A program made the position numbers and the translations under genes. This document shows, piece after piece, positions 11,739 through 41,261 of a stretch of DNA of 41,364 nt (its first letter is position 1; every line of letters starts with the position of its first letter). The stretch is from Synechococcus sp. UW140 (GTDB taxonomy: Bacteria; Cyanobacteriota; Cyanobacteriia; PCC-6307; Cyanobiaceae), in the NCBI GenBank assembly GCA_945875915.1, contig CAMCMT010000023.1, positions 1 through 41,364 of the forward strand. The letters are read 5' to 3'. Below the pieces are notes generated by a model that worked only from the letters and a program-made list of their open reading frames with translations, made no database searches and had not been told where the DNA came from.

Positions 11739-12587
11739 ATGTCTGAATGGCTGGTTTGGTCTGCTGTTGCGGCGGTCTGCTCCGTCGGCTGCGGCTTTTT
11801 TACGGCTCGCCAGCGCGGTCGCTTACGCAAGATTCAGGCGATTCGCTCCGTCACCATTGAAGAACTGCATGGTTTGCAGCAGGAGGTCGCCAAGGAGATC
11901 GGTGCCGGAGCCTATGGGGAGTCGGTAAAGCTTCAGGCCGATCTGGTTTGTGAGCAACCCCTGATTGCACCCTTTAGTGGGGAGGGGTGCATTGCCTATC
12001 AAAATGCAATTGTGGAAGTCTTTGAAGAGCTGGTTACATCAACTGATTCAGAGGGTAAAACCACGCGCTCTTGGCAGCAGCGTGAACGCAGTATCAGCAG
12101 TGAGGAGCGCCGTTGTAATTTTAGTCTCAAACAGGGGATCCTTAGTATTGCTGTTGATCCTGATGGTGCTGATATCGATCTTGTTGAGATTATTAACAGA
12201 ATGGAACCTGGGCAATTTTCGCCACTAGGTGCTTCTGCTGGCATCGAAGGCGCTCCCGGCGTGGCCTTGCAGCTCGCTTCAACCTTAATTAATTCTAAGG
12301 CCGCTCGTGGGCAAGAACAGTCGTTTCGTTTAATCGGCTACCGCAGCCAAGAATCAATCTTTCCGGCTTCTGGATCGGTCTTTATTGTAGCAGAAGCTTC
12401 TGATTCTGGTGGTTCCCTTCGTCTGCGTCAGCCCATAACGTCTGGCTTGTTCTTGATCCGCAACAAGGGTGAGGAAGGCGTGCTCATGGGCTTGCGAAAC
12501 AGCATTAATCTGTGGACGATAGGCTGGGTTAGTTTTGTTGTGATTGCGTTGATTCTAATGATTTGTGCAGTGCTTGGCTTAGGCTAA
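11739..12587 (+). CDS. GIDE-domain membrane protein
   Basis: Membrane protein of 282 residues with a topology like eukaryotic MULAN/GIDE without the RING finger. An N-terminal helix (WLVWSAVAAVCSVGCGFFTA) is followed by a soluble GIDE-type region containing VCEQPLIAPFSGEGCIAYQN and the IDLVEIINRM segment. A C-terminal helix comes last (WTIGWVSFVVIALILMICAV). Bacterial GIDE proteins are of unknown function. I chose the ATG at 11739, which has an AAGG upstream. A GTG at 11691 would add 16 residues before the first helix. The gene stands alone between two gene-poor stretches. Confidence 0.75.
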   Translation: MSEWLVWSAVAAVCSVGCGFFTARQRGRLRKIQAIRSVTIEELHGLQQEVAKEIGAGAYGESVKLQADLVCEQPLIAPFSGEGCIAYQNAIVEVFEELVTSTDSEGKTTRSWQQRERSISSEERRCNFSLKQGILSIAVDPDGADIDLVEIINRMEPGQFSPLGASAGIEGAPGVALQLASTLINSKAARGQEQSFRLIGYRSQESIFPASGSVFIVAEASDSGGSLRLRQPITSGLFLIRNKGEEGVLMGLRNSINLWTIGWVSFVVIALILMICAVLGLG

Positions 12588-12738
12588 TCAACTGCATATT
12601 TAGTGAGTAGAAACTTGCCAATGGCTAAATGCTTCTGTTGCGCAATGCAGGACTATGCTTCTATTGAATATTAGAGCAAGGACGCTGTGCATCCATTAAT
12701 CTTGCTTGAGTATGGCACACATGGCTAGCATCTAGCAG

Positions 12739-13839
12739 CTATTTTTCTCTGCCAAACCACTTGATTTTCAGCTCATCGATCACTCCCGCTTCGCTCAACT
12801 TTAACATCGTTTGATTGATGGGTTCTCGCAGTGCGCTGTTATTTTGAAGCCCGAATCCATAATTGTTTTTTTGGAAAAGATTGCCAACGGTTAAAACTTA
12901 TCTGGCCAAAGTTCTTTGATGTCATATTGGAGGATAGGGGAGTCATGGATAACGGTCTTTACCTTGCCATTTTTGAGAGCTGCTAAGCAGCTGGGAACAT
13001 CTGGATAGAGCTGCACCTTGATCGTCTCCCCACTACCACTCAGTGCGCCTGTCAACCATGATTCGGCCGTGCTGCCTTCAATGGTGGCGACAGAATTGCC
13101 GTAAAGATCATCGGGACCATTGATTTCGCTGAGTGCAGCCTTAACTGTTAAGGCTGCACTCAGCGATGCTGTTAATAGGGAGACAGCAACCACACTGGCA
13201 AACATCCAAACCGTTGCCACAATGCGACCACCGGTTCAGACTGGTCCCTTGTTGTCAGCTCCGTCAACCAGGAAAATACTGATGGTCAACCAAAATGATT
13301 CACCGAGGCCAGAACTGTAGGCTTTCTGCCACATCTCCTCATTGACTGGATGTTCATATTTCCAAACGTGATGGGAGATGACGAACATCACCGAGAGGGC
13401 TACACCTAAGCCTGCCACTAGCTGTCATGTGAAAATATTGGATAGGATGGAGATCAGCACCGCGAACGTGCCGGCAGGCTTCTTAGGGACAAGAACTTGA
13501 AGACCTGATTCAAAAAATGGTTGGGAGAAATCAATGGATTTCTCTCAATCTGCCGTGATGCTCAAGTCAAGGCGCCAACGGCAACATCGGCTTGTTTGTT
13601 ATTGACGGTGGCAACCATGCGATTGACACTCGGGACAACAGTGAAGCTACTGTCTATTTTTAGTTCGAGTGAAATCAGCTCCCATAGTTCTATGGAGTAA
13701 CCAGCTCTGGCTCGAACTTTCTCAAAAGAAAAGGATTTAGTATGTCGGGTCATCACATTATCTGTTGGGCATGGACGAGTCCGCAGTTGACCAGGCTGAT
13801 CGAGAAACAAAATGCAAGCGCCCAAGCCCTTAGGGAGGG
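12739..13839 (-). pseudogene. Broken ionotropic glutamate-receptor-like channel (GluR0 type)
   Basis: Remnant of a ligand-gated channel with a periplasmic glutamine/glutamate-binding domain split by a potassium-type pore. Reading the minus strand in shifting frames gives, in order: a signal peptide (ALAFCFSISLVNCGLVHAQQ), binding lobe 1 (RAGYSIELWELISLELKID), a helix, pore and helix region (GESFWLTISIFLVDGAD, then VWMFASVVAVSLLTASLSA), and lobe 2 (INGPDDLYGNSVATIEGSTA). It ends with ALREPINQTMLKLSEAGVID and a stop at 12739. There are at least three frameshifts (after the signal peptide, near 13565 and near 12893). Three in-frame TGA codons lie near 13537, 13429 and 13237, at positions that look like former Arg or Trp. 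A perfect palindrome sits where the pore joins lobe 2. The gene cannot make the full protein. Confidence 0.8.
13128..13164. repeat. Perfect 37-bp palindrome inside the receptor pseudogene
   Basis: Two 18-base arms (GCTGAGTGCAGCCTTAAC and its exact reverse complement) around a single T. The arms lie at the junction between the pore helix and binding lobe 2 of the broken receptor gene. There is no T tract, so it is not an obvious terminator. Confidence 0.9.
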
Positions 13840-13875
13840 CTTGGCTCGGTGCCGTAAATTTGTGCTATTGGCCAG

Positions 13876-14442
13876 GCGTTTTAGGTGCTGAATTAATTTC
13901 AAGACAACTAAAGGGGAATTATTTTTAAAGATTTGCAGATCTGCTGCGGATCTACAAGAGCCGCAGGGTTCTTCCGTCATAGGCGCTAAGTCAGCAGCAG
14001 CCTGCTTGGCGCTGCTGCGCGGCATCTTGTCGGGTTTAATCGATTGATTGCTTGTCCTTTGGGGCTTTTGTCTAGTTCGGTTTGGATCTGTGATAGCAAA
14101 GGAATAAATATTGGTTCTTCCCATTACCTATCTTTTGTCAGCTTCTGGTTTTGGTGCATTGGCAATGACATCCTTTTACTTGCATGCAACCTATTCTGGA
14201 TTGATTTATTTAAGACTGCCCTGTTGTAACTCAATCGCTATTATGGCATGCAATTTCAACTGCTACATAGAGGACGCCTAGGGAGATTGCTCTTGCAAGT
14301 GAGCGCCTTTGAGGGTCCCGTAGATAGCGTTAAAGTAGCTTATGATCATTTCTAATGGGGCTGTGATTTGCATTATTTCTTGCCTACTTAGCGAACTTTG
14401 CTGCAATTGCTGTCTTGATTCAGCTAATGGCTTGTCTTATTC
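13876..14442. other. Gene-poor interval
   Basis: Roughly 570 bp between the receptor pseudogene and the DUF3307 gene. Short ORFs on both strands lack ribosome-binding sites and protein-like composition. I saw no RNA gene, terminator or mobile-element end. Confidence 0.5.
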
Positions 14443-14790
14443 CTACGCATGGGACGTGATGCCTGCCAAGATAAGAACCCAGGCCGCTTTGCAGGCAGCA
14501 TGCAAAAACTGATCAACCGCTAAATTAAAGTATCCTTTGCATTTGCACGTATCGATAATACTATGCAAGATGAACTCTGCGCCGCCAAGCCAGATGTTAT
14601 TGGTTAAAAGTGAGACGACCAAGGCGTGGGTGCCAGCATGACCAGCCAGCCAATAGGTCCAGTGAACGCCAACAACAGAGGAGCCAGGGCATTTGCCTAT
14701 GGCTAATTTATCTGTTTGCAGTGGGTAATCAGCGAGGCAATGCCCAAATAGCAACAGAATAAAAAGTGGGACGCCGGCAACCCCAATCAT
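14443..14790 (-). CDS. DUF3307-like membrane protein
   Basis: Small hydrophobic protein of 115 residues. The arrangement GHCLADYPLQTDKLA, then HWTYWLAGHAGTHALVVSLL, then HSIIDTCK and VDQFLHAACKAAWV places conserved His and Asp residues in membrane helices. I recognise this as the DUF3307 pattern. Family members are found in many bacteria and some phages, and their function is unknown. The Cys-rich DTCKCKGY insertion is unusual. The gene is divergent from the ParA-like gene, with an inverted repeat in the space between the two starts. Confidence 0.7.
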   Translation of the reverse strand: MIGVAGVPLFILLLFGHCLADYPLQTDKLAIGKCPGSSVVGVHWTYWLAGHAGTHALVVSLLTNNIWLGGAEFILHSIIDTCKCKGYFNLAVDQFLHAACKAAWVLILAGITSHA

Positions 14791-14834
14791 GATTGAATTG
14801 GATTTACTCCTGAGCTTAGCGTATTCAAGGATTA

Positions 14835-14864
14835 AGCTTGCTGATTATGTTATTTTAGCAAGCT
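14835..14864. promoter_or_regulatory. Inverted repeat between divergent genes
   Basis: AGCTTGCT and its exact complement AGCAAGCT are separated by 14 AT-rich bases. They lie about 45 bp upstream of the DUF3307 start and 145 bp upstream of the ParA-like start. An operator or a hairpin are both possible; there is no T tract directly after either arm. Confidence 0.4.
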
Positions 14865-15009
14865 GTCACCATTTGTCAAGCCCCTCCCCACTGGCCAATG
14901 GTGGGCAATCCAACGGTGCCATCGCCACTACTTGGTAGCAAATCACTGAGCATGCTTGACATTGGAGCTCTGATGGAGTGAGATAGGGAGTCAAAATAGT
15001 TTTCATTGC

Positions 15010-15774
15010 ATGGCGACCCCTTACATCATTGCTACCCACAGTTACCGGGGAGGCACCGGCAAGTCTAATGTGACGGCCAATATAGCGTCGGAGCTTGCCC
15101 TTTCTGGGTTGAGAGTAGGTGTTGTAGATACGGATTTGCCCTCTCCTGGGATTCACATTCTGTTTGGTCAGGATGAGCCGGCCGTTACGATTAACGGTGT
15201 ATTTGACCAGGAGTATGGCATTGAAAAAGCGTTTATAGATGTTACACCAGAGGGCCCAAGCTTTCTTGGTAAGATGTTTTTGCTGGCTGGCAGCCCTAAA
15301 CCTTCGGACATTGCAAGGATTGTCAAGGAAGGTTATACGATGGATCAAATGATTGATATTTATCGTGGATTTATCAAGGCGGCTAATTTGGATGTTTTGT
15401 TGTTGGATACGCATCCAGGCATTAATGAGACGACCCTTTTTTCTATCACGGTTTCTGACCTGTTGATAATGATTCTGCGTCCCGACCGCCAGGATTACCA
15501 GGGTACCGCCGTAACCGTTGACGTGGCGCGTAAGCTAGGCGTCCCCGATTTAAGATTACTGATGAACAAGGCGTTAACAAGCCTTGATTGGCAGAGTATT
15601 AAATCTACAATTGAATCTACCTATCAAGCCCCCTGTTTAGGGATTTTGGCGCAAAATGATGACATTATGCGCTATGGAGGCAGCGGCTTGTTTTCCCAGC
15701 AGGAGCCTACCCATCCATTTACGGTCCAATTGAAGGCTGTTGTTTCCCAATTGCTGCCCTTGATCAAGGCTTGA
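15010..15774 (+). CDS. ParA/MinD-like P-loop ATPase
   Basis: Soluble protein of 254 residues from the SIMIBI class. The deviant Walker A motif is HSYRGGTGKSNVTANIA near residues 10-26. VGVVDTDLPSPGIHILFG follows, with the switch I Asp, and DVLLLDTHPGINETTLF is the Walker B/switch II region. The signature Lys of ParA/MinD (KGGxxK) is replaced by Arg here (RGGTGK), which may alter hydrolysis or dimer activation. No ParB, MinE or centromere-like repeats are nearby, so chromosome or plasmid partition is not supported. It is followed 40 bp later by a multi-pass membrane protein on the same strand, which suggests it may position or regulate that partner. Confidence 0.8.
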   Translation: MATPYIIATHSYRGGTGKSNVTANIASELALSGLRVGVVDTDLPSPGIHILFGQDEPAVTINGVFDQEYGIEKAFIDVTPEGPSFLGKMFLLAGSPKPSDIARIVKEGYTMDQMIDIYRGFIKAANLDVLLLDTHPGINETTLFSITVSDLLIMILRPDRQDYQGTAVTVDVARKLGVPDLRLLMNKALTSLDWQSIKSTIESTYQAPCLGILAQNDDIMRYGGSGLFSQQEPTHPFTVQLKAVVSQLLPLIKA

Positions 15775-15814
15775 TCCCTCCATCCCAACCCACCATTCTT
15801 CCTAATTAATCATC

Positions 15815-16681
15815 ATGATGAATATGTCCCTGCTATTATTTGATCTTTTTCTTGCCAAGCCCCCCACCAATGCAGCAGAAACCTCCACGGATTGGCTGGC
15901 TGTCAGTTCTGTGACGATCCTGTTTACCATTTTAGTACTATTAACCCAGTTTGCGCCAACTATCTTAGAATTTATCAATAGACATGAGTCTAAGCTTTCT
16001 AAAAAGTTTCTTGATTTACCCATCGCCCTGCGGTCTTTTTCATCCGGATTGGCAGTGGCCTACGTGTTGACCATGCTAATTCCTGAGTATCAAGTCTTTA
16101 ATGAAAAAGTCACGTATGGCTGGATTAATGCCTATAAATTATCGCTTTTTGGCTTGGTTGCCTACAAGGGTATTCAACATTATTGCCTTTTAGTTGCTAA
16201 TAAAAGCTCCCAATCCATGGGTGAGTGGGGCTTTGTTAAGTCGCGGCAAGAGGAAAAGTTGTTGGGTTTTCGGGTGTCAACTTCGGTTTTTGCAGTGTAT
16301 GCCTCGCTAATCCTTTTGACCCTTCCCTACCAGCTGACATACTTGAATGGTCCTGCCGATAAACTCCTCTATCTGTTGACCTTTGTAATGCATCTTGGCT
16401 TCAATATTTTTGGTTTGTTTGAGGAAAATGAAAAGCACTTTAAGCGGCTTGTGCCCCCTGTCGTTATTACTGTGCTTAGCGCCTCACTGGTCCTCACCCT
16501 GTTTAATGTTTTGTCAACGGCCTTGCTGCTTGGTTGCCTGAGCGTATTGGCGGGCATTATTCTTTATAATGTTTTTAAGAACGAGCTGCCTTCCGCCGGG
16601 AATTCTTCGTTTGCTTGGTTTGCAATTGGCGTCTTTATCTTTGTCAGTGTTGACACGTTGACTGTGCGCAGCTTACATTAA
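15815..16681 (+). CDS. Multi-pass membrane protein, unrecognised
   Basis: I do not recognise a family for this 288-residue protein. It has about eight hydrophobic segments, including VTILFTILVLLTQFAPTIL, FSSGLAVAYVLTMLIPEY and VITVLSASLVLTLFNVLS. The layout recalls ZIP-type transporters in overall arrangement, but the HNxxD-like metal motifs are absent. The segment FGLFEENEKHFKRL forms a charged loop. The gene follows the ParA-like ATPase by 40 bp and converges on the cyclic-nucleotide-binding gene with only 17 bp between stops. Pairing with the ATPase is inferred from spacing alone. Confidence 0.65.
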   Translation: MMNMSLLLFDLFLAKPPTNAAETSTDWLAVSSVTILFTILVLLTQFAPTILEFINRHESKLSKKFLDLPIALRSFSSGLAVAYVLTMLIPEYQVFNEKVTYGWINAYKLSLFGLVAYKGIQHYCLLVANKSSQSMGEWGFVKSRQEEKLLGFRVSTSVFAVYASLILLTLPYQLTYLNGPADKLLYLLTFVMHLGFNIFGLFEENEKHFKRLVPPVVITVLSASLVLTLFNVLSTALLLGCLSVLAGIILYNVFKNELPSAGNSSFAWFAIGVFIFVSVDTLTVRSLH

Positions 16682-16698
16682 AAAGCTGTTTTTGCTCT

Positions 16699-17505
16699 CT
16701 AATTGCCTTTCAGGCGGTCCCTAAGACTGCCTGACTGGCTTTTGAGTTTTTGAAAGATCGGATCGCTTTCGATGCTATCTACTTCTTTTGCTGCTCTGGC
16801 ATGATCGATCTCGATCGTGAGGAGTTGGATTTTGTCTTGCAGCTCTGCTTCCCGAGCTTTGATTCTTGCAAGCATGGTTGCAAATTCTTTTCTTGCTGCC
16901 GTGACAGTGGCATCATCACTGATTTTCTCAATGTTAATTTGGGATTGAACACTTGCCAGGTCACCGGCGCTGATTAGTCGTGTTAAATAGCTGAATTCGT
17001 TGATATACTGGAGCATGGATCTCGATCGTTTTGTCAGTTCCTTGACCAAGGAATGTCTTGCCTTCGTGTCGTTATCGATCAGCTTGAGTGCCTCTTCGTT
17101 TTCCAGGCCAACTAGCAGAACATTATTGCCTTTGGCAGAACAGGTCGCTGACCGACGAGTTTCACCAAATAGCGTCATCTCGCCAATCACGGCGCCTGGC
17201 TTGAGGGTGGCAACGGTGGTGCTCTCGCCTGATTGATTTTTAATCGAAACGGTCATTTCACCCTCTTCAAGCACATAGATTCGATCGCTGATCTCGCCTT
17301 CTTGGACTAGATCCTCTGCGTCGTTTAGGGTGATACATTGACCCTGCTCTTTCGCGCCATTGCGGAGGAGTATGGCAAGGTCACTGCCTTGGTCGGGCGT
17401 ATTGGCTGTCGCCGGTTTGCATGGTGGCAACATGCCTTGATTCCCATGGTCTAGAATTAGGTCTATTATAGGGAAAATCAGTCCCCCAATGATTGCTCTG
17501 CGCAT
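16699..17505 (-). CDS. Cyclic-nucleotide-binding protein with C-terminal coiled coil
   Basis: Protein of 268 residues from the ATG at 17505. A short hydrophobic N-terminal stretch (AIIGGLIFPIIDLIL) comes first. A CNB domain follows at about residues 50-150, with the phosphate-binding cassette IGEMTLFGETRRSA including its Arg. The rest is helical and coiled coil (EFATMLARIKAREAELQDK). There is no output domain such as a DNA-binding HTH, so it may act as a binding partner rather than a CRP-type regulator. The start overlaps that of the divergent MscS gene by 17 bp. A downstream ATG at 17433 would remove this overlap and the hydrophobic leader. Its coiled-coil tail and CNB domain match the theme of the neighbouring channel. 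Confidence 0.75.
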   Translation of the reverse strand: MRRAIIGGLIFPIIDLILDHGNQGMLPPCKPATANTPDQGSDLAILLRNGAKEQGQCITLNDAEDLVQEGEISDRIYVLEEGEMTVSIKNQSGESTTVATLKPGAVIGEMTLFGETRRSATCSAKGNNVLLVGLENEEALKLIDNDTKARHSLVKELTKRSRSMLQYINEFSYLTRLISAGDLASVQSQINIEKISDDATVTAARKEFATMLARIKAREAELQDKIQLLTIEIDHARAAKEVDSIESDPIFQKLKSQSGSLRDRLKGN

Positions 17506-19003
17506 TTCTTTACTTTTTCTGTTGCTGTTAGTTACTTTTCCGTTAGGCAAGGCGAAGGCTCAGGCCAAGGGTTCGCATCTTCGTTGGCTGCCAAGTATGC
17601 GCATTGTGCGCCTGTTGATCATCGCTCGCATGGCCAAAGTAATTGAAGTTGATTTTCTTCATTTAAGTGGTGATCTTGTCGCTTGGACGGCGCTAATTAA
17701 TGCAGCGGCTATTTCCTTGCTGGTTTTAGATCTAACCATTGATTATAGCTGGATGGTGATGCATGCTGTTGGTGGGGCGCGTAATACGCCGCCAAAGATA
17801 TTCCGTGAGTTGTTTTTTCTGTCCGGTTGTTCGGCAATTATTGGCTATACTCTCTATAGCAGCGGTTCGATCAGCGGCTGGGGTACGGCTGCTGGTGCTT
17901 CCGTATTGGCCTTCGTGATTGGTCCTGGAACTAGTAGCCAGTTGCAAAATCTTGCTTCGGGGTTGTCTATCCAACTTGAAAAGCAATTTGTGGTTGGTGA
18001 TTGGGTTGAATTTGAGGGAATTCTTGGTCAGGTTACCTCTATTTCCTGGAGTAATACCACCCTTCTGGATGATCTTTCCGACCGTACAGTTTGTGTCGCA
18101 AACTCTAAGATTGATCAGGCAATTATTGTTAACCATTCCAAAGCTGCCCCGGCCTTCAAGGTACTGGTTGAGGTGGGGCTGCCCTATGAGATGCGCCCAG
18201 AGCTTGCCCGCGAATTGCTTGTGGAAACTGTTCATTCCCATGCCAATGTCTTGTTGACTAGGCCCATTGAAGTGGTGTTGAAAACATTTAATGCCTCGTC
18301 AATAGATTATGAGTTATATTTCTATATCCGTGATTACGCTAGGCGTCATCAAGTTCTTACGGACGTTCGTGCCCGTATATGGTACGCGGTGCAGCGGCGA
18401 GGTTTCTCGATCCCGTTCCCGATCATGGACCTACGGCCCATCGGTGGTGAGCGGCGGCTTGCCCATTCCGAGCTCATAAATCAACGTCAAGAATGTTTTG
18501 TGGCCCTGCGTTCCCTGGCCCTATTGACGCCTTTATCAGATAGGGAGTTGCAATGCTTAGCAGACTCTGAACGGGTCATTATGTACGGCGTGGGTGAATT
18601 TATTATTGGCAAGCAGGACGCTGACCGCTCCATGTTTGTCTTACTTTCCGGCGAATGCGGTGTGATGGTGGCGGCTGATCCCGATGATGGTTCTTTGCGT
18701 CAGGTGGCTACCCTTGTAAAGGGAACCCTGTTTGGTGAGATGTCTGCCTTTACGGACAGTCCCCGCAGTGCTTGTATTGTTGCCAAATCGCCTGTATCCG
18801 TATTGAAAATATCCCAATCATCGATTCAACAAGTCTTTGTTAAAAATGAAAAGGCACTTGAGGGTATTGTTGAATTAATAGCCAGGCGGGAGGCCGGTCT
18901 CAAGGCGTTCACGGCCACGCAAACCCGTGACCTTGAAGAGAGTCTCTTGGCCCAGATGGGAACCACCCTGCGGCGCTTTTTGGGCTACGGGGCCGATGCT
19001 TAG
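17489..19003 (+). CDS. MscS-type channel fused to a cyclic-nucleotide-binding domain
   Basis: Predicted gated channel of 504 residues. The N terminus has a signal-like hydrophobic segment (LLFLLLLVTFPLGKAKA) and two or three membrane helices. The MscS pore and beta domain follow: WGTAAGASVLAFVIGPGTSS, LQNLASGLSIQLEKQFVVGDW, and VTSISWSNTTLLDDL. The C-terminal CNB domain spans about residues 355-475, with the cassette GTLFGEMSAFTDSPRSAC retaining Glu and Arg. Proteins of this architecture are known in cyanobacteria and other bacteria as cyclic-nucleotide-gated MscS relatives. Whether the ligand is cAMP cannot be told from sequence. It is divergent from another CNB protein, which makes a shared second-messenger response plausible. 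Confidence 0.88.
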   Translation: MIALRISLLFLLLLVTFPLGKAKAQAKGSHLRWLPSMRIVRLLIIARMAKVIEVDFLHLSGDLVAWTALINAAAISLLVLDLTIDYSWMVMHAVGGARNTPPKIFRELFFLSGCSAIIGYTLYSSGSISGWGTAAGASVLAFVIGPGTSSQLQNLASGLSIQLEKQFVVGDWVEFEGILGQVTSISWSNTTLLDDLSDRTVCVANSKIDQAIIVNHSKAAPAFKVLVEVGLPYEMRPELARELLVETVHSHANVLLTRPIEVVLKTFNASSIDYELYFYIRDYARRHQVLTDVRARIWYAVQRRGFSIPFPIMDLRPIGGERRLAHSELINQRQECFVALRSLALLTPLSDRELQCLADSERVIMYGVGEFIIGKQDADRSMFVLLSGECGVMVAADPDDGSLRQVATLVKGTLFGEMSAFTDSPRSACIVAKSPVSVLKISQSSIQQVFVKNEKALEGIVELIARREAGLKAFTATQTRDLEESLLAQMGTTLRRFLGYGADA

Positions 19004-19193: not shown

Positions 19194-19221
19194 AAAAAGC
19201 CGCCTCTCGGAAGAAGCGGCT
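19194..19221 (-). terminator. Terminator of the truncated tRNA-Pro
   Basis: Read on the minus strand, the arms AGCCGC and GCGGCT, with an inner TCT/AGA pair, are followed by five T. It lies about 30 bp past the 3' end of the tRNA-Pro fragment and has the position expected of that tRNA's original terminator. Confidence 0.8.
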
Positions 19222-19251
19222 CTATGACAGGGATTTGCCGTTGTTCCTGAA

Positions 19252-19298
19252 TCGGAGCGACAGGATTTGAACCTGCGACCCCCACTACCCCAAAGTGG
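19252..19298 (-). tRNA. 3' fragment of tRNA-Pro(GGG), probable attachment site
   Basis: On the minus strand this segment holds an anticodon stem CCACT/AGTGG around the loop TTGGGGT (anticodon GGG). A five-base variable region follows, then a T arm GCAGG-TTCAAAT-CCTGT, the acceptor strand CGCTCCG and discriminator A. The matching 5' half should lie at 19299-19325 but is absent: the bases there form neither a D arm nor the complementary acceptor strand. A fragment running from the anticodon arm to the 3' end, still next to its terminator, is the typical remnant left by tyrosine-recombinase integration into a tRNA gene. It cannot work as a tRNA. Confidence 0.85.
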
Positions 19299-19780
19299 TA
19301 TTTCTTGCTCAAGATCCATTGGTGTAACTGGCTTTTTGTGAGTGTAAATTTTTCCCTTGCCTACTCCTTGCCTGCTTGCCGTTGCCGCCGTCCTGGTCTG
19401 CGGATCGCGCCAGGCTTGCCGGGCGTCTCCTGCTGCTCGTTTTGCTGGTCACTGTGGTGAAAGCCCCCAACCGGGCTCGGGGGTGCCAATTCCTCCTGGT
19501 GGCCATGGACAGCTCCTGGGATGGAGGGCTCCAGGCCGGTCGACCTGAGCCCCGTCCTGCTGCGAAGGCCTGCTTGCGCCTGGGCTCCCAGCAGCCCTTG
19601 CCCCATTCCAGCTGGGGCCTGGGGTTGGTTGCTATGGCTTTGATCGCTTCCTAGGTGGCTGGGCGAGTGAACAGCACTTCTATTCATTGCATGCATGATT
19701 AGACCGGCCACCCGTTAGCCGCTTATGCAGGAGTACCGATTCCTGCTGACAAATCGCTCTGATTAGACGATGCTGCTGGC
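19299..19780. other. Island left edge and drm operon leader
   Basis: About 480 bp between the tRNA fragment and drmD. ORFs on both strands here are Gly/Pro/Gln-rich and not protein-like. The last 90 bp hold a dyad and two copies of a 9-base repeat, described separately. The transcription start of the drm operon probably lies in this interval. Confidence 0.5.
19696..19768. promoter_or_regulatory. Possible operator region upstream of drmD
   Basis: TGATTAGAC occurs at 19696-19704 and again at 19760-19768. Between the copies, GCAGGA at 19727-19732 and its complement TCCTGC at 19741-19746 form a dyad with an eight-base centre. The second repeat ends 12 bp before the drmD ATG. This could be a regulator-binding region or an RNA hairpin over the leader; neither is proven. 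Confidence 0.35.
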
Positions 19781-22700
19781 ATGACAGCTACGCCCCCTCG
19801 AGGCCGCCAGAAGCTAAAGCCCGGTGCCGTGGTGCGCTGTCGCACGCGCCGTTACCTGGTCGAGGACGTGCAGGCTCCCCAGGACGCTGGCGGCGACACG
19901 GTTGTGTCCATGGCCTGCATGGAGGATGACGCGATTGGCGCCCGGCTGACGGTGTTCCGGGAACGGGAAATCGACTTTGAGCTGCTGGGGGAGAGCAGCT
20001 GGGATGCGGTCGCCCAGCGGGGGTTCGACCAGCCGAAGCAGTTCGCCGCCTACCTCAACACCCTCCGCTGGAACTGCGTCACTGCCACGGACGCGGAGCT
20101 GTTCCAGGCCCCCTACCGGGCTGGCATCGATGTGAAGGCCTACCAGCTGGAGCCCCTGCGCAAGGCCCTGCAGATGCCTCGGGTGGGCCTGTTCATCGCC
20201 GACGACGTGGGCCTGGGCAAAACGATCGAGGCTGGCCTGATCCTGCGGGAGATGCTGTTGCGCCAACGCATCAAGCGGGTGGTGATCAGCTGCCCGCCCT
20301 CGGTGCTGCGCCAGTGGCAGGAGGAAATGGCCAACCGCTTTGGCCTCGCTTTCACCGTGATGGACCGGGCCTACGTGGCCAAGGTGCGGCAGGAGCGGGG
20401 CTATGGCACCAATCCATGGAGCACCCACAGCCGTTTTCTGATCTCCCATGCCCTGCTGCGCAACTCGGAATACTCCGCTCCCCTGCGGGTTTGGCTGGAG
20501 CAAGGCAAGGGCGGGGAAGATCAGGCCTCTGTCCAGAGTTTGTTGATTCTCGATGAGGCCCACAATGCGGCGCCGGCCAGTAATTCACTTCGCTATGCCA
20601 TCGATTCAGGATTGACCCGCAGCCTGAGGGATCTGGCGCCCCTGTTCGAGCACCGAATCTTTCTGTCTGCCACACCCCATAACGGCCACAGCAATAGTTT
20701 CACCGCCCTACTGGAACTGCTCGATCCAGCCCGATTTGTGCGGGGCGTTCCCTTTGAGCCCGGGGATCTGGACACGGTCCTGGTGCGTCGCCTCAAGGAC
20801 GATCTGCGTCGCATCGGCGAGGAGTTCCCCGAGCGCATAGTCGAGGCCTTCTCCGTGCCGAAAGGAAGCCTGCCGGCCGACACCCCGGAGCTGGAGCTCT
20901 CACGGTTGCTTCAGAAATACCGCAAGCAGCGGGAGCAGCGGTTGATTCAGGGGGGAGCGACCAAGCGACAACTCAATGCCGATCGGTTGGTGATCACCAA
21001 CCTCCAAAAGCGGCTGCTGAGCTCGATCGAAGCCTTCGCCCGCACCCTCAAGGTTCATCGCAGGAGCCTCGATCAAAAGCAGGAGCAACGCCGCGAAGCC
21101 TCGGCCGCCAGGGGAATGCCCTTGGAACTATTGCTCGGTGGTGTGGAGTGCGACAGCGGCCTGGCTGAGCTCACGGAAGAGGAGCTGCTCAACCTGGAGG
21201 AGGCGCAAACCCGAGCGGCCCTGAGACAAACCCTTGAGGCTGACCAGAGCGATCTGACCCTGCTGGAGCGCATGGGCGAGATCGCGGAAGCCAACCGCAA
21301 CAGGCCTGATCCCCGGATCAAGCTGCTGGAGACCTTTCTGCGCACCCACCTTTGTCCCGATCTCGGGGAGGCCAACGCGGTGTGGCAGCCCACCCGTCTG
21401 TTGATCTTCACCGACTATGTCGATACCAAGCGCTACCTGGAGCGCCAGCTACGCGAACTCCTGGGCGATGACGATGCCGATCGACGCCTGGCGTCCTTCA
21501 CCGGTGGCATGGGCGAGGACACCCGCGAACGACTGAAGGCCCAGTTCAATGCCGATCCCGAGGACGAACCCCTACGGATCCTGATTGCCACCGATGCGGC
21601 CCGGGAGGGGGTGAACCTGCAGAACCACTGCAAGCACCTGATCCATTTCGACATCCCCTGGAACCCCAGCAAGCTGGAGCAACGCAACGGTCGCATCGAC
21701 CGCAAGCTCCAACGGGCTCCCCAGGTGTGGTGTCATTACTTCGTGCTCGAAGACCGCCCCGAGGATCGGGTGATGGATGTGCTCGTGCGGAAGACGGAGG
21801 TGATCCGCCAGGAGCTGGGGTCCCTCTCGCCCCTGGTGCAACGCCAAGTGGATGAGGTGCTCGAAGGCGGCATCGACACCGACAACAGCGATGCGGTGCA
21901 ACAGCAGCTGCTGGCCATGGATTCAAAGGCAACCGATCGCGGCGCCCTGCTGGACCGTGCCCGGGAGGAGTTGGACGCCAATCGGCGGGTGACGTCTTTG
22001 CAGCACCAGCAGGATGAATTGCGCCAGCTGCTGGCCAAATCCCACGACTGGCTGGGATTCGATGACGATCCCTTCCGCGAGGCCCTCAACTGCTCCTTTG
22101 ACCTGTTGGGAGTCGGTGGCCTCAAGGAAGGGCTTGATGACCAGGGGCAACCCTGTTGGCGCCTAGACCATCCCGAAACCCTCGCGGCGGGCAGCAACGA
22201 CCGCAGTTGGGACCACACCCTCGACAGCCTGCGAGGCCACTGGGACCGCAAAACCCCGCTCTGGCAATGGCGCCAGGAGAATCCGGTGCGGCCCGTGATT
22301 TTTTCCGACCCGGGACGCCTCAATGCCGAGGCCGTTCACCTGCATCTGGAGCATCGCCTGGTGCAGCGCCTGCTGAGTCGCTTTCTCAGCCAGGGCTTCC
22401 TGCACCACGAATTGAGCCGGGCCTGCGTGTTGGCCAGCCGGGATCCCCAACCCAAGGTGCTCGTGCTGGGGCGGTTGTCCCTGTTTGGCCTGGGGGCCAC
22501 CCGGCTGCACGATGAATTGATCAGCGTGATTGCCGATTGGCATCCAGGCGTTGATCGGGCGGCTGCACTCCAACCGCTGGGCGGCGATCAGCGCCAACAG
22601 GCCTGGGCGCTGCTGACCCAAGCCATGGCCGATGGTGGTATCCAGGCGATTACAGGCGAGACCCGCCGCCAACTCCAGGCTGAAGCGCCTGCGGATGTGG

Positions 22701-23137
22701 AGGCGCTCAAGCCAGCCCTCGATGGGGCTGCCAACCAGGCCTTGGCTGCCGCAGCGGAGCTGCTTAAGCAGCGGGGGGAACTGGAGGCTGCCGCCTTGCG
22801 CGACGTGCTCCGCAGCCAGCGCAAGCGCATCAACGCCACCGTGCGGCAACGCAACCAGGATCTGGCCAAGCTCGATCGCCGGGTCGCTGTTGCCGATCCC
22901 ACCGGCCTGATTCCAGGACTGGATGACCAGTTGGATGTGCCGGCCCTGGATCTCCAGAAACTCTCCAACCAGGAACGCAAACAACTGGCTGCCGACCAGA
23001 AACACTGGCAACGGCGGCTTGAAGTGATTGAAACGGAGCTGGCCAGCGAACCCAAACGCATCCAGGACAGCTACCGCGTCATCACCCACCGGCTGGAACC
23101 GGCCGGGCTTGTGTACCTCTGGCCGATCAGCGGCTAA
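19781..23137 (+). CDS. drmD: DISARM SNF2-family helicase DrmD
   Basis: Large helicase-like ATPase of 1118 residues and a defining member of class 1 DISARM. Motif I is DDVGLGKTIEAGLIL near residue 142, motif II is LLILDEAHNA near 258, and motif III is LSATPHNGH near 295. The C-terminal lobe has LLIFTDYVDTKRYLERQL, then IATDAAREGVNLQ near 603 and QRNGRIDR near 634. The remaining 480 residues are helical, with a Gln/Leu-rich coiled-coil stretch. The N-terminal 100 residues form a small domain ahead of the ATPase. In DISARM it is thought to move along or remodel DNA, but its exact step is not settled. The fic gene starts three bases after its stop. Confidence 0.9.
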   Translation: MTATPPRGRQKLKPGAVVRCRTRRYLVEDVQAPQDAGGDTVVSMACMEDDAIGARLTVFREREIDFELLGESSWDAVAQRGFDQPKQFAAYLNTLRWNCVTATDAELFQAPYRAGIDVKAYQLEPLRKALQMPRVGLFIADDVGLGKTIEAGLILREMLLRQRIKRVVISCPPSVLRQWQEEMANRFGLAFTVMDRAYVAKVRQERGYGTNPWSTHSRFLISHALLRNSEYSAPLRVWLEQGKGGEDQASVQSLLILDEAHNAAPASNSLRYAIDSGLTRSLRDLAPLFEHRIFLSATPHNGHSNSFTALLELLDPARFVRGVPFEPGDLDTVLVRRLKDDLRRIGEEFPERIVEAFSVPKGSLPADTPELELSRLLQKYRKQREQRLIQGGATKRQLNADRLVITNLQKRLLSSIEAFARTLKVHRRSLDQKQEQRREASAARGMPLELLLGGVECDSGLAELTEEELLNLEEAQTRAALRQTLEADQSDLTLLERMGEIAEANRNRPDPRIKLLETFLRTHLCPDLGEANAVWQPTRLLIFTDYVDTKRYLERQLRELLGDDDADRRLASFTGGMGEDTRERLKAQFNADPEDEPLRILIATDAAREGVNLQNHCKHLIHFDIPWNPSKLEQRNGRIDRKLQRAPQVWCHYFVLEDRPEDRVMDVLVRKTEVIRQELGSLSPLVQRQVDEVLEGGIDTDNSDAVQQQLLAMDSKATDRGALLDRAREELDANRRVTSLQHQQDELRQLLAKSHDWLGFDDDPFREALNCSFDLLGVGGLKEGLDDQGQPCWRLDHPETLAAGSNDRSWDHTLDSLRGHWDRKTPLWQWRQENPVRPVIFSDPGRLNAEAVHLHLEHRLVQRLLSRFLSQGFLHHELSRACVLASRDPQPKVLVLGRLSLFGLGATRLHDELISVIADWHPGVDRAAALQPLGGDQRQQAWALLTQAMADGGIQAITGETRRQLQAEAPADVEALKPALDGAANQALAAAAELLKQRGELEAAALRDVLRSQRKRINATVRQRNQDLAKLDRRVAVADPTGLIPGLDDQLDVPALDLQKLSNQERKQLAADQKHWQRRLEVIETELASEPKRIQDSYRVITHRLEPAGLVYLWPISG

Positions 23138-23140
23138 GCC

Positions 23141-24286
23141 ATGAAGCCTTCACTCTCGGCGCCATGGGCTCCCCATTACGACTACAGCGATGCGCTGGTG
23201 AACGACCTCTGCGTGGTCGCTGACGCCCGGGCGCGGGTGGGGTTGTTGCCACTGCCAGCAGATGAAAGCTTGCGGTTGCGCCACGCGGCCTATCAGCGCA
23301 GCACCCGTAGCAGCACTCGCATCGAAGGCAACCCTCTCGATGACCAGGCCGTGCGCGTGGCGATTGCAGCCGCTGATCGCGAGGGAAGCAAGGCCGAACA
23401 GGAGGTTCGCAACTACTGGCGTGCCCTCGACCGTGTGGAGGAATGGGCCCAGGGCAGCAGCCCCCTTAGCGAGGCCTGGATTCAGGAACTGCATGCCGTG
23501 GTGATCGTGCGGGGGCGGGGCCGCAGGCGACAACGAACGCCCTACCGCGACGATGAAGTGCCGGTTGTGGACACCGTCAGTCGCCGGATCGATTACGCCC
23601 CACCCAGGCCAGAGGATGTGGGCCCGTTGATGCAGCAGCTCTGCCAGTGGTGGCATGCCAGTGAGATGGTGCCACCCCTGATCCGGGCCGCCTTGCTCAG
23701 CCATCGCTTTATCTCCATCCACCCTTTTCCGGATGGCAATGGCCGCTGCGGGCGCTTGCTGGCTACGGCAGCGCTGTGGCGCAGCGGCTACGCCTTCCGG
23801 GGATTGCTGAGCTTCGAAGAATGGTTTGCGGCTGATCGGCAGAGCTACTACGCCGCCCTGCAATTGGGCTGCCCAGTGAACTTCTACGAGGGCCGCCACG
23901 ACCCCGATCACAGCCCATGGCTGAGCTACTTCTCCCATGTGATTGGCCAGGCGGCAGTGGACCTGGCCGCAAGAGCAGAAGCTCTTCAATCCCGCCAAGC
24001 GCAACCGGATCCCCACCCATGGGAAGGGCTCGACCGCCGCAGTCAGCAGCTGCTCACCCGATTGCGAGCCCGCGTAACAGCCGGCGAGGTCGAGGCCGCG
24101 CAGTTCAAGCCCGGCGACCTGGAGGAGTGGTTTGCGGTCTCACCAACGACAACTCAGGAATGGCTGCGCGACTGGCAGGCAGAGGGTCTGCTGGAACCCG
24201 CGAAGCCAGGTCAACGCATTCGCAGTTGGCGGCTCTGCGAGCCCTGGCTGGGGTGGGTCATAGGCCAACCGCACCAACGGGAATAG
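23141..24286 (+). CDS. Fic-domain AMP transferase with winged-helix tail
   Basis: Fic enzymes transfer AMP or related groups to hydroxyl side chains of target proteins. The complete catalytic motif HPFPDGNGRCGR begins near residue 194 (HxFxDGNGRxxR). An inhibitory-helix motif SSTRIEGNP lies near residue 56 in the N-terminal part, as in self-inhibited class II Fic proteins. The last 80 residues (VSPTTTQEWLRDWQAEGLLE) look like a winged helix, possibly for DNA binding. The length is 381 residues, typical for Fic/DOC proteins of the DUF4172/winged-helix kind. It starts three bases after drmD and must be co-translated or co-transcribed with it. It is not a canonical DISARM gene, so it may regulate the system or act as an abortive module. 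Confidence 0.88.
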   Translation: MKPSLSAPWAPHYDYSDALVNDLCVVADARARVGLLPLPADESLRLRHAAYQRSTRSSTRIEGNPLDDQAVRVAIAAADREGSKAEQEVRNYWRALDRVEEWAQGSSPLSEAWIQELHAVVIVRGRGRRRQRTPYRDDEVPVVDTVSRRIDYAPPRPEDVGPLMQQLCQWWHASEMVPPLIRAALLSHRFISIHPFPDGNGRCGRLLATAALWRSGYAFRGLLSFEEWFAADRQSYYAALQLGCPVNFYEGRHDPDHSPWLSYFSHVIGQAAVDLAARAEALQSRQAQPDPHPWEGLDRRSQQLLTRLRARVTAGEVEAAQFKPGDLEEWFAVSPTTTQEWLRDWQAEGLLEPAKPGQRIRSWRLCEPWLGWVIGQPHQRE

Positions 24287-24404
24287 AACAAGTGAATCTG
24301 AGCAAAACCACCACCCCTCGCCAAGACATCCCAGTTAAGGCATGCATTAGGGCTAAGCAATAAGCCAAGTCATCATTCAGCGTTAGCACCCATTTCTCGC
24401 CTCC

Positions 24405-27400
24405 ATGCCCCGCCGCCCCCCCACCACAGACCCCGAACTCAGGGCCCACCAGGAGTGGCTCGGCTACCTCCAGCCCGTGGGCCTGGTGGTGGCGCCGGCG
24501 GCGATGGTGGATGCCGGCTGGGTGGTGACCCGCAGCGGCAGCGATTGGATTGGGCGGCAGGACCGTTATCGCCAGGCCCTTGAACCCCTTGGTAGCCCCG
24601 ATGGGGATGGGGCCGATGGCGATGGCCTGGGTGACGAGAGCTCGGTGGGGGATGCCTTCGAAGGCGATGGGCTGCGGGGTTTCCGCGAACTCGAAAGCCT
24701 GCTGGTGGATCAGCTGGGCTGGCAAGCCGACCAGCTGGGCCGCACCCCTGAGCTGATTGATGCCTACAGCCGCGATCTGCCGGAACTGGGTGAAACCCTC
24801 AAGCCCTCGGCGGTGGTGGCAGCGGCCTCGGGGGGAGGGGCCCAGCTGTTGGTGTGGGAACTGCCCCTGGGGCTGGCCCTGGATCAGAAACAGAGCAGTG
24901 GCACCCAGCTCTGGCGCGCCAGCCCGCAAGAACGGTTTGAGCGGTTGCTACGCGATAGCGGCGTGGAGGCAGGGCTGCTGTTTAACGGCAGCCAGCTGCG
25001 GCTGGTGGTGGCCCCGAAGGGCGAGAGCTCGGGCCATCTCACCTTCCCACTGGCCGACCTGGCGGAGGTGGGCGGCCGCCTGATGGGCTCAGGGCTGGAG
25101 TTGTTGCTGGGCCAGAGCGCCGTGTTTTTCAACCCAGCGGGCACCCGCCTGGGCGATGTTCTTAAGGCCAGCCGCCACTTCCAGGCGGTGGTGAGCAATG
25201 CCCTGGCAGACCAGGTTTTGGCGGCCCTATGGGACCTGCTGCGCGGCATCGAGCAGGCCGACCAACTCAGCCAACGGCAAGGCGGCAGCCTGTTGGGCCC
25301 GATTGCCGACAGCGAGCCCCAGCAGCTCTACGGCGGCCTGATCACGGTGCTGATGCGGCTGGTGTTCCTGCTCTACGCCGAAGACGAGGCGCTGATGCCC
25401 AGCGATCCGGTGTACGAACAGAATTACAAGGTGAGCGGCATCTTTGAGCGGCTACAGCAGGACGCCGCCGAGTACCCCGACACGATGGACCAGCGCTACG
25501 GCGCCTGGGCCGGACTGATGAGCCTCTGCCGGCTGGTGTTTGCCGGCGGCGGCCCCAGCGAGGGTTACCTGCCGGCTCGCAAGGGCCAACTGTTTGATCC
25601 GGCGGCCTATCGGTGGCTGGATACGCCCTGGATCAGCGATGGCGTGGTGCTCTCGGTGCTCAGCAATTTGCTGGTGGTGAAGGGGGAGCGGATCAGTTAC
25701 CGGGCCCTGGATGTGGAGCAGATCGGCTCGGTGTATGAGGGGATCATGGGTTATGCGGTGCGGCGCCTGGCGGGCCGCTGCATCGGCCTAAAAAGCAAGC
25801 CCCAGGGCGCCAAGAAACAGATCACCACGGCGGTGGATCTCGACGCGCTGCTGGAACTGCCTGGCGCCAAACGCAAGGCCTGGCTGGAGGAAGAAGCGGG
25901 CACCAGCCTGCCCGCCAAGGCCGCCACGGCCTTGAAAGAGGCGCGCAGTGAAACCGACCTGCTTGCTGCCCTGGCCCCGCGGCTGGATCGCGACCTGTTT
26001 GAAGGCCCCCAGCCGGCCGGCAGCCTGGTGTTCCAACCCACCGAGGAACGGCGCCGCAGCGGCAGCCACTACACGCCCCGCTCCCTCACCCGGCCGATCG
26101 TGGCCGAGGCCCTGCGGCCCTGGCTGGAGCGCATGGCTCACCAGCCCAGCGCTGAGCAAATCCTGGCGTTGAAGATCTGCGATCCGGCCATGGGTTCGGG
26201 GGCCTTTTTGGTGGAGAGCTGCCGCTTCCTGGCCGAACTGCTGGAGCAGGCCTGGAGCCGCGACGGCCTACCCCAGGCGTTGCAACCTGGGGGCCGCGCC
26301 CATGGCGAAGAGCCGCTGCTCTATGCCCGCCGCCTGATTGCCCAGGGCTGCCTCTATGGGGTGGATAAAAACCCCTTTGCCGTGAATCTGGCGAGGCTGA
26401 GCTTGTGGCTGGTGAGCCTAAGTAAGGACGCACCGTTCACGTTTGTGGACCACGCCCTGCAATGCGGCGATTCCCTAGTGGGCATCGAGCGATCCGAGAT
26501 CGAGAAGGCCCTCAAGGGCGCCAGCCGGCAGCGCGAGATCCAGATGGCCTATCTCGATCAGGTGCGCCAACAGGAGGCCAAGTGCTTCGCCACGTTCCAT
26601 GCCGACAGCCGCAGCGATGCCGACGACGCTCAGAAGCGCCAGGCCCTCGACGATCTGAACGCCAGTACGGCCTACCTGCGCACGGTGGGCGACCTGCTGG
26701 TGGCGGCCTTCTTCAACGGCAAGAAGCCGAAGGATCGTGAGGAGCTGAAGAAGCTGTATCTGGAGGCCACGCTGCAGCACAGCACAGCCCAGGAGCTGGA
26801 AGAGGAACTGGCCGAACCGCTGGAGCGACTGCGTGAGGGCGAGAAGGGGATACAGCCGCTGCACTGGCAACTGGCTTTTCCTGATGTATTCGGACGGGCT
26901 CTAACGGGATTTGACGTATTCGTGGGTAACCCGCCCTTTGCAGGCAACAACACCTTCATTCAGGGCTATCCCGACGGTATTCTGGACTGGTTCAAACAGC
27001 TTCACCGGGAAAGCGGTGGACAGTGTGACCTAGTTGCTCATTTTTACCGCCGATGCTTTCATTTCCTACGAGTAGGCGGTTCTCTTGGCTTGATAGCAAC
27101 AAACACCATTGCCCAGGGCGACACCAGAGCCTCGGGATTGCGATGGATCTGCCTCAACGGCGGCTCTATCTATGCCGCACGCCGTCGCTATAAATGGCCC
27201 GGCATAGCTGCCGTAACTATAAGTATCGTCTATGTACACAATGGAGAGTATATCGGCAAAAGGTCTCTTGATTCCCTGCCTGTAGAGAGGATCACCGCTT
27301 TTCTCTTGTCCCAGGGTGGGGACGAAGATCCGAAGCAGCTGACTGCCAATTCAGGGTTTTGCTTCTCTGGAAGCCACGTAACTGGATCTGGATTTACTTT

Positions 27401-28613
27401 CGAAGACTGTGAAGATGCTGACTATGACACGCCAGGCACCCCATCGCCGGTCGCGAGAGTAGAGAGCCTAATCGAGGCCAATCCAGTGACCAGAGAGGCA
27501 ATTCACCCGTACATTGGGGGTGAGGAGATAAATAGCAGCCCGACTCATGCCTACTGCAGGTATATTATAAATTTTGGCGACATGGAAGAGGCGGAATGCA
27601 GGAGAAAATGGCCAGAGCTAATGAATATTGTAGAGAAGAAAGTTAAGCCGAGCAGAATGCTAAATAAGCGCGAATCCTATCGTAAATACTGGTGGCAATA
27701 CGCAGAAAAGAGGCCAGCATTATACGCACAATTGCAGAACTGCGAGCATGTGCTTATGCATTCGTTTACATCGAAATATCTTCAGTTCGCTCGCCTGGGG
27801 ACGGGCATTGTCTACGCTGCGCCTCATATTGTAATCACGCTGCCTGGCTGGCAATACTTTGGCGTTTTGCAGTCAACTCTTCACGAGGTTTACGTCTTGC
27901 ACACGAGTTCCACGCTAGAAGATCGCCTAAGCTATAAAGCTTCCGACTCGTTTGAGACATTTCCTTTTCCGTTTGGCCTATGCGTGGCAGAGGATATGCC
28001 TGATTCAACTATCGATGCGTCGTTTCAGGTTGCAAATATATCTTTTCTTTGTCACGAAAAACGTGCACAGCTGATGATTGCGAATGATGAAGGCCTCACA
28101 AGCACCTACAACCGCTTCCACGATCCCGCCGAAACGAGCAGCGGTCTCATGGAGCTGCGCAGGCTCCACGGCGGGATGGATCAAGCGGTGCTGAACGCCT
28201 ACGGCTGGAGTGATGTGTCCACGGCCTACGGCTTCGGCCTCGATTACCTCGATCTCGAAGAAGACGCCCACCTACCCGAGGACCTGCTGCAGCGCATCGA
28301 CGACGGCGAGCTGTTCTTCTTGGACGCAGGCGATGCCCTCGATTTCCAGGGCCAGCTGCAGGCCTACGGCGCCATCACCGGCCGCCGCAAACTGCCCTGG
28401 CGCTACCGCTGGCCCGATGCCGTGCGGGATGACGTGTTGGCGCGGCTGCTTGCCCTGAACGCCGAGCGCTATGCCGAGGAGGTGGCGCTGGGGTTGCACA
28501 GTAAGGGGGGGAAGAAAGCTGCACCAGCGGCAGCGGGGGACGTTAAACGGCGCGGCCGCCCGCCGAAAGCGGCCCTGGCCACCGATGGACATCAGATCGG
28601 ACTGGCCCTATGA
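24405..28613 (+). CDS. drmMI: DISARM N6-adenine DNA methyltransferase DrmMI
   Basis: Protein of 1402 residues that is expected to methylate adenine at the host recognition site. SAM-binding motif I is DPAMGSGAFLVES near residue 593, and the catalytic NPPF is in FVGNPPFAGN near 842. The N-terminal 590 residues carry a helical region but no clear PD-(D/E)xK nuclease motif. DNA between about 26.9 and 28.1 kb (residues 830-1230) is visibly more AT-rich, with rare codons such as ATA. This is where the target-recognition domain should lie, which suggests replacement of specificity. The C terminus has an AT-hook-like KRRGRPPKAAL. The 118-bp gap before the start is the longest in the locus and might hold an internal promoter. 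Confidence 0.9.
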   Translation: MPRRPPTTDPELRAHQEWLGYLQPVGLVVAPAAMVDAGWVVTRSGSDWIGRQDRYRQALEPLGSPDGDGADGDGLGDESSVGDAFEGDGLRGFRELESLLVDQLGWQADQLGRTPELIDAYSRDLPELGETLKPSAVVAAASGGGAQLLVWELPLGLALDQKQSSGTQLWRASPQERFERLLRDSGVEAGLLFNGSQLRLVVAPKGESSGHLTFPLADLAEVGGRLMGSGLELLLGQSAVFFNPAGTRLGDVLKASRHFQAVVSNALADQVLAALWDLLRGIEQADQLSQRQGGSLLGPIADSEPQQLYGGLITVLMRLVFLLYAEDEALMPSDPVYEQNYKVSGIFERLQQDAAEYPDTMDQRYGAWAGLMSLCRLVFAGGGPSEGYLPARKGQLFDPAAYRWLDTPWISDGVVLSVLSNLLVVKGERISYRALDVEQIGSVYEGIMGYAVRRLAGRCIGLKSKPQGAKKQITTAVDLDALLELPGAKRKAWLEEEAGTSLPAKAATALKEARSETDLLAALAPRLDRDLFEGPQPAGSLVFQPTEERRRSGSHYTPRSLTRPIVAEALRPWLERMAHQPSAEQILALKICDPAMGSGAFLVESCRFLAELLEQAWSRDGLPQALQPGGRAHGEEPLLYARRLIAQGCLYGVDKNPFAVNLARLSLWLVSLSKDAPFTFVDHALQCGDSLVGIERSEIEKALKGASRQREIQMAYLDQVRQQEAKCFATFHADSRSDADDAQKRQALDDLNASTAYLRTVGDLLVAAFFNGKKPKDREELKKLYLEATLQHSTAQELEEELAEPLERLREGEKGIQPLHWQLAFPDVFGRALTGFDVFVGNPPFAGNNTFIQGYPDGILDWFKQLHRESGGQCDLVAHFYRRCFHFLRVGGSLGLIATNTIAQGDTRASGLRWICLNGGSIYAARRRYKWPGIAAVTISIVYVHNGEYIGKRSLDSLPVERITAFLLSQGGDEDPKQLTANSGFCFSGSHVTGSGFTFEDCEDADYDTPGTPSPVARVESLIEANPVTREAIHPYIGGEEINSSPTHAYCRYIINFGDMEEAECRRKWPELMNIVEKKVKPSRMLNKRESYRKYWWQYAEKRPALYAQLQNCEHVLMHSFTSKYLQFARLGTGIVYAAPHIVITLPGWQYFGVLQSTLHEVYVLHTSSTLEDRLSYKASDSFETFPFPFGLCVAEDMPDSTIDASFQVANISFLCHEKRAQLMIANDEGLTSTYNRFHDPAETSSGLMELRRLHGGMDQAVLNAYGWSDVSTAYGFGLDYLDLEEDAHLPEDLLQRIDDGELFFLDAGDALDFQGQLQAYGAITGRRKLPWRYRWPDAVRDDVLARLLALNAERYAEEVALGLHSKGGKKAAPAAAGDVKRRGRPPKAALATDGHQIGLAL

Positions 28614-28656
28614 AGTTCGACCCTTGGCCAGCCATACGAAACGCCTGATCACCACC

Positions 28657-29172
28657 ATGCCCCGATCCACTGGCCCAACCAGCAAGCCCGCCGCGGAAAT
28701 CGGCAAAACCACGGCCCGGCGGTTTCCGCTGGTGCACAAGCTGATTCACTTCGCCGATCTCCGCAACTTCTATCGGGAGATGCGGGAAGCCCTGATCTCC
28801 GCCAACCGGCGCGCCGGGGCCCAGCAGGGTCTGGTGACCAAGGCCAAGAACAAGATCGCCCAGCTGGAGGCTGAGATGAAGCTCCTGGAACAGGAACGGG
28901 ACGACCTTCTCTCCTATCGCCAACGGGTGGAGGAGGAGGCCAATCAGATCTCCGCCGTGTTGCCCCGCCTCAAGGGCCGGCTGCTGCAGGTTCAACAGAT
29001 CGAGCAGGCCCTAGAGAACTTGGCCGACATCAAGGAGGCGGTCGACCAGCAAGAGCGTGCCCATGGTGGCCCCACCCACCAGTCGAGCCAGGATCTCAAG
29101 CTCGCGGTCGAACGCTTATTGGAGCGGGCTGATGCTGTTGAATTCTTCGAGGAATCAATCGATGACGAATAA
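28657..29172 (+). CDS. DISARM-associated coiled-coil protein, unrecognised
   Basis: I do not recognise a family. The 171-residue product has a basic N-terminal tail, then RRFPLVHKLIHFADLRNFYR, followed by a Glu/Gln-rich coiled coil from about residue 60 to 130 (KNKIAQLEAEMKLLEQERDD). It ends in an acidic tail (FFEESIDDE). There is no signal peptide or membrane segment. I chose the ATG at 28657, 44 bp after the drmMI stop, because an upstream extension would overlap the methylase. The stop overlaps the next start by 11 bp, so the two are translationally coupled. Position between drmMI and the toxin module suggests a structural or adaptor role, which is inference. Confidence 0.7.
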   Translation: MPRSTGPTSKPAAEIGKTTARRFPLVHKLIHFADLRNFYREMREALISANRRAGAQQGLVTKAKNKIAQLEAEMKLLEQERDDLLSYRQRVEEEANQISAVLPRLKGRLLQVQQIEQALENLADIKEAVDQQERAHGGPTHQSSQDLKLAVERLLERADAVEFFEESIDDE

Positions 29173-30670: not shown

Positions 30671-30673
30671 ACT

Positions 30674-34210: not shown

Positions 34211-34231
34211 GCCCAGTAGCCACCACCCCCA

Positions 34232-41170: not shown

Positions 41171-41225
41171 GAGGTGCTGGCGTGAGTGTTTTTCGCCCAG
41201 CCCTTGATTTGGTTTAGGGCACCTC
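41171..41225. repeat. Nested inverted repeats (possible structured element)
   Basis: GAGGTGC at 41171 pairs with GCACCTC at 41219. Inside lie a TGGCG/CGCCCA hairpin (one-base bulge) and a GCCC/GGGC hairpin. Together they can form a three-way junction about 55 bases long on either strand. Confidence 0.45.
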
Positions 41226-41261
41226 GAATAATCAGTAAATCGCAGAGGTTTTGTAGACATG

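Follow-up and report, generated by a model that had tools for sequence, protein, structure and literature searches.

The window analysed here, the whole 41364-bp contig C23 of a picocyanobacterial draft assembly (92 contigs, 2.62 Mb), raises a simple question: why does the 3' part of a tRNA-Pro(GGG) gene, followed by its terminator and deprived of any 5' half, lie next to a predicted DISARM operon? The preliminary description of this DNA read the fragment as the footprint of an integration at the 3' end of a tRNA gene and as the boundary of an island; it placed the DISARM region inside the element and an intact tRNA gene to the right of the window. On the basis of the sequence comparisons reported below, we consider it very probable that the window holds the distal, attR-side end of a genomic island which carries DISARM as cargo and which entered the chromosome by integration, its attB being the anticodon arm of tRNA-Pro(GGG).

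The tRNA-Pro(GGG) fragment and its intact counterpart

On the minus strand, positions 19252-19299 reproduce nucleotides 27-74 of the 74-nt tRNA-Pro(GGG), starting one base ahead of the anticodon stem and finishing with the discriminator base, with 100% identity to the intact copy of the same genome and to those of congeners. The fragment had been described before as 47 bases long (19252-19298); its identity stands and its length is corrected to 48 nt. Behind it, the intrinsic terminator of the gene can be read directly at 19194-19222 (minus strand) as a hairpin followed by a T run; it also lines up with the terminators that follow intact copies of the gene. Above 19299 the tRNA likeness ends and the 5' half is absent. 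The Rfam tRNA model, whose cut-off is 29 bits, gives 19.8 bits at the fragment without any real 5' half, whereas the intact copy on contig C3 scores 60.4 bits, and no intact tRNA or tRNA-like functional RNA was detected by ARAGORN or Rfam anywhere in the window. Direct reading, ARAGORN, Rfam and alignment thus all confirm the truncated gene with its terminator, and a chance origin of an exact match of 48 bp is ruled out.

The sole intact tRNA-Pro(GGG) gene of the genome is at C3:100409-100482, and all 48 bases of the fragment are identical in it. The likeness goes on behind the tRNA, where 51 of the 58 bp at 19194-19251 are identical, so that the whole direct repeat between the window and C3 is 106 bp long with 93% identity (48/48 in the tRNA part). 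This repeat has two copies only in the genome. A third match, at C60:2-31, was rejected as a further att copy since it belongs to the T-arm region of a different tRNA-Pro gene, which is intact.

An ORF of 356 aa (C3:100611-101681) begins 128 bp past the intact tRNA gene and matches tyrosine recombinases, both in Pfam (PF00589, E 2.9e-6) and in PHROGs (phrog_1 integrase, E 6e-15). The Pfam match is barely over the cut-off, and box II of this protein reads Y-x-x-R, H-x-x-R being usual; its presumed catalytic tyrosine is Y338. No close relative of it was found among the genome contigs and viral contigs searched; its matches in phages are weak, the best being the integrase of cyanophage PSS2 (26%). 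Beyond the recombinase lie an ORF of 99 aa and a gene of the opposite strand, whose product combines Prim-Pol, CHC2 zinc-ribbon and AAA domains and has no match among phage records. An intact tRNA-Pro(GGG) sharing the fragment, with an integrase gene nearby, is what had been predicted, and a single intact copy with an exact match and a tyrosine-recombinase gene just downstream is what we found. It lies on another contig; its position to the right of the window is deduced from the orientation of the fragment and from the empty site described in the next section. We also noticed, in a genome of another genus (G041, L073 6859-6957), that tRNA-Pro(GGG) is closely followed by a stretch matching 33 aa at the N-terminus of the C3 integrase, possibly what is left of a related element inserted there.

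The empty site in two congeners

In the congener G002, a single stretch of 13.9 kb (L069) contains both flanks: it is 94% identical to C3 as far as the end of the repeat and 88% identical to C23 from the repeat on, away from the island. The only overlap of the two matches is the 106-bp repeat, which belongs there to a single intact tRNA-Pro(GGG) gene with its terminator. The same contiguity is found in G005, at 86-91% on the C3 side and 80% on the C23 side. This means that the left flank of C3, one intact tRNA-Pro(GGG) and the left flank of the window are contiguous in both congeners, which is the arrangement of an empty site. The genome G004 was left out of this comparison because its contig stops 4 nt past the 3' end of the tRNA. 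A gene of the window's chromosomal flank, coding for an MscS-type channel with a cNMP-binding domain (17489-19003, plus strand; Pfam), has orthologues near the intact tRNA gene in island-free relatives, at about 200 bp in G002 and G005 and at about 0.8 kb in G001. A search for DrmC in G002 and G005 found none, and no truncated copy of tRNA-Pro(GGG) occurs in the congeners without DISARM at this site. The preliminary description had called for such a comparison: strains lacking the island were expected to be free of the fragment, as they are, and in two of them the intact gene is joined directly to the left flank of the window.

The likeness to the empty-site relatives breaks off at 19299. On these sequence grounds, the empty site in G002 and G005 places the putative attR-side junction at 19299/19300 and the predicted DISARM operon inside the element. 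The bases just beyond the terminator align with G002 in the window copy and do not in the C3 copy; hence the window would hold the displaced chromosomal 3' part with its terminator, and C3 the replacement brought by the element.

The following course of events can be proposed. A tyrosine integrase coded beside the tRNA gene would have recombined an attP borne by the element with the chromosomal tRNA-Pro(GGG) gene. This attP would have carried the 3' part of the tRNA together with the element's own terminator, slightly diverged, as the 51/58 identity outside the tRNA suggests. The tRNA would then have been restored at the integrase end, on contig C3, while the original chromosomal 3' part and its terminator would have been pushed to the distal end (window 19194-19299), DISARM lying within the element as cargo. 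We infer that the C3 recombinase was the agent of this integration, that a single element has its ends on C3 and C23, and that this element may be excisable. The fragment, the intact copy and the orientation of both were directly observed, and so were the direct repeat, the adjacent recombinase gene and the empty sites of the congeners; the earlier reading of an island boundary left by integration at a tRNA 3' end is supported. One end of a DISARM-bearing island is hereby fixed to the base, with an empty site and a likely integrase, and the ends on the window and on C3 make a defined att pair available.

Composition does not mark the island: its GC content is 58% and that of the chromosomal part of the window 60%. 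The chromosomal flank at 12001-18000 has about 46% GC, against 67-70% at 1-10 kb; this low-GC flank is not recent, because part of it is conserved beside the tRNA gene in congeners.

DISARM operons and tRNA fragments in the family

Of the island, the window covers 19300-41364, a segment open at the contig end. It contains, all on the plus strand, drmD, coding for the SNF2 helicase of DISARM class 1 (19781-23137; PADLOC 1031.8 bits), drmMI, coding for its adenine methylase (24405-28613; 1190.7 bits), drmA, coding for a YprA-type helicase (30674-34210; 826.6 bits), drmB, with an MrfA Zn-binding domain (34232-36130; PADLOC and Pfam PF09369), and drmC (36127-36942; 417.3 bits). All five genes are intact and co-directional with strong PADLOC scores, and the operon (19781-36942) is a predicted anti-phage system of DISARM class 1 according to PADLOC; the orientation of the tRNA fragment puts it inside the element, as had been predicted. 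The five genes occurring together is what it shares with this class. It differs by a gene for a SoFic-like Fic-domain protein between drmD and drmMI (23141-24286; Pfam PF02661, PADLOC SoFic) and by a pair of MntA/HepT type between drmMI and drmA (29979-30670), made of a nucleotidyltransferase ORF (29979-30299; PF01909/PF18765) and an overlapping HepT-like ORF (30056-30670; PF01934). The Fic gene and the nucleotidyltransferase/HepT-like set (29665-30670), of toxin-antitoxin type, are present again in some of the family's DISARM operons, for instance that of G139, and are missing or replaced in others. When the segment 30674-36942 is compared with contig C114 of G001 (L129), DrmA and DrmB are 98% and 97% identical and DrmC only 69%; so abrupt a drop from DrmB to DrmC suggests a recombination at the end of the operon.

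A library of 52 distinct tRNA sequences was compared with the DISARM loci of the family in 21 further genomes. In five of these genomes a truncated 3' fragment of a tRNA lies near DISARM, derived from tRNA-Ala in G131 and G235, from tRNA-Val in G139 and G240, and from tRNA-Lys in G218. All six fragments, including that of the window, begin at nucleotides 26-29 and stop precisely at the 3' terminus of the tRNA, a sequence feature which assigns them to the anticodon-arm crossover class. DISARM is on the side predicted by the orientation of the fragment in four of the five genomes. The exception is G218, whose tRNA-Lys fragment (L133 7351-7306, that is G218:C1:1098205-1098250) was dropped as support since its orientation puts DISARM outside its element.

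In three genomes the whole interval can be followed on one contig. In G131, tRNA-Ala, an integrase, DISARM and a 3' fragment (nucleotides 28-75) succeed each other within 23.8 kb; an integrase and DISARM are likewise found in the tRNA-Ala interval of G235 (30.3 kb) and in the tRNA-Val interval of G139 (42.5 kb). The intact tRNA is on the predicted side in all three, with the integrase ORF beside it. That of G235 appears frameshifted. No Pfam domain was found in these three ORFs; PHROGs matched both of those tested (G131 and G139). The C3 integrase shares 24% identity with that of G131 and 30% with that of G139, and a three-way alignment shows the positions R, YxxRH, H and Y in all of them.

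As a control, spaced regions totalling 796 kb were taken from seven closed genomes of the same set, and they yielded no such fragment. Five cases against none, not counting the window, correspond to p about 0.02 if placement is uniform, a value to be read with an incomplete tRNA library, several short contigs and a sampling which was not blind; the enrichment of tRNA fragments near DISARM is suggestive, not strong. It is possible, and nearly as probable as the contrary, that DISARM spread in picocyanobacteria mainly by related integrative elements crossing over in the tRNA anticodon arm, which would have switched both their target (Pro, Ala, Val, perhaps Lys) and their integrases, one operon being shuttled among tRNA sites. 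The repeated presence of DISARM in tRNA/integrase intervals of this family would explain by what route a defence operon of this size can pass between these cyanobacteria.

Extent of the island, other readings and known elements

The island is at least 27 kb long, with 5.1 kb on C3 and 22.1 kb on C23. C3 ends at 105620 in a repeat of 149 bp (L006 19773-19921) which is common to the ends of C27 and C76 and abuts the 5' end of the Prim-Pol ORF; it is probably the edge of a multi-copy element. C23 is closed by an IS-like repeat (41216-41364), 100% identical to the end of C34 and about 74-79% identical to two others. As both inner ends fall in multi-copy repeats, the island is not physically closed and its middle is unassembled. 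The contigs which share these end repeats are unrelated, and hence no bridge across the island was found through contig ends, be it from the C3 repeat with C27 and C76 or from the C23 repeat with C34.

This missing middle leaves some room for a composite island, in which the integrase/Prim-Pol module of C3 and the DISARM segment of C23 would be two elements accreted at one tRNA gene, DISARM not being the cargo of this integrase. G001 speaks for it as well, since it has DISARM on other contigs (DrmA 98%, DrmB 97%) and its tRNA-Pro(GGG) site is without such an island. When elements accrete in tandem, however, a further tRNA 3' fragment is normally left between them, and the assembly has only two copies of the repeat; moreover, DISARM lies within one integrase-bearing interval in G131, G235 and G139. 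We thus regard a composite as unlikely. Far less probable is an artefact of assembly or binning, by which the DISARM contig would have been misjoined to the chromosome at a tRNA-like repeat: a draft of 92 contigs lends itself to such errors, but the junction has the exact configuration expected for attR, its partner attL with an integrase is in the same genome, the left parts of C23 and C3 both match the same congeners at 80-94%, and the closed relative G131 has the same architecture. Finally, a decayed tRNA pseudogene born of a rearrangement or a segmental duplication, with no part played by site-specific integration, would account for the duplicated terminator, needless for a minimal att duplication, but is hardly credible given the empty site contiguous across exactly the 106-bp repeat in two congeners, the recombinase gene beside the intact copy, and the fragments of five other genomes which begin at nucleotides 26-29 and reach the exact 3' end.

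The preferred reading, a single island integrated in tRNA-Pro(GGG), describes a well-known kind of event, and defence operons on such elements are already known. The only moderately new point is that tRNA-integrated elements repeatedly carry DISARM in picocyanobacteria; no description of this was found in the literature searched, whose coverage was partial. Tycheposons, first described in Prochlorococcus, have a tRNA at their border and a tyrosine recombinase; the present island resembles them in this tRNA/recombinase layout only, and we claim no membership.

Islander recognizes islands of 2-200 kb by an intact tDNA, its displaced fragment, the correct orientation and an integrase, and 2083 of its 3919 islands are anticodon-centred (PMC4383910). 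Here, the intact tDNA and the terminal fragment agree at 48/48 positions, their presence in one replicon following from the empty site; the colinear empty site of G002 and G005 puts the 3' fragment downstream in the same orientation, the tyrosine integrase ORF (C3:100611-101681) is inside the interval, and the site is uninterrupted in these two relatives. The adjacent integrase and the fragment starting at the anticodon arm are shared with the Islander class, from which our island differs in that its repeat includes the terminator (106 bp in all) and that its interval is split over two contigs. In E. coli, defence systems with a YprA helicase are carried by tRNA-integrating elements (PMC12458937), with which the present island has in common a defence cargo, an integrase and direct repeats in the 3' part of a tRNA gene. 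The host belongs to a different phylum, the tRNA repeat is one of 48 nt at the anticodon arm against 16-20 nt in E. coli, and a Prim-Pol replication protein is found where the E. coli elements have an HUH Rep.
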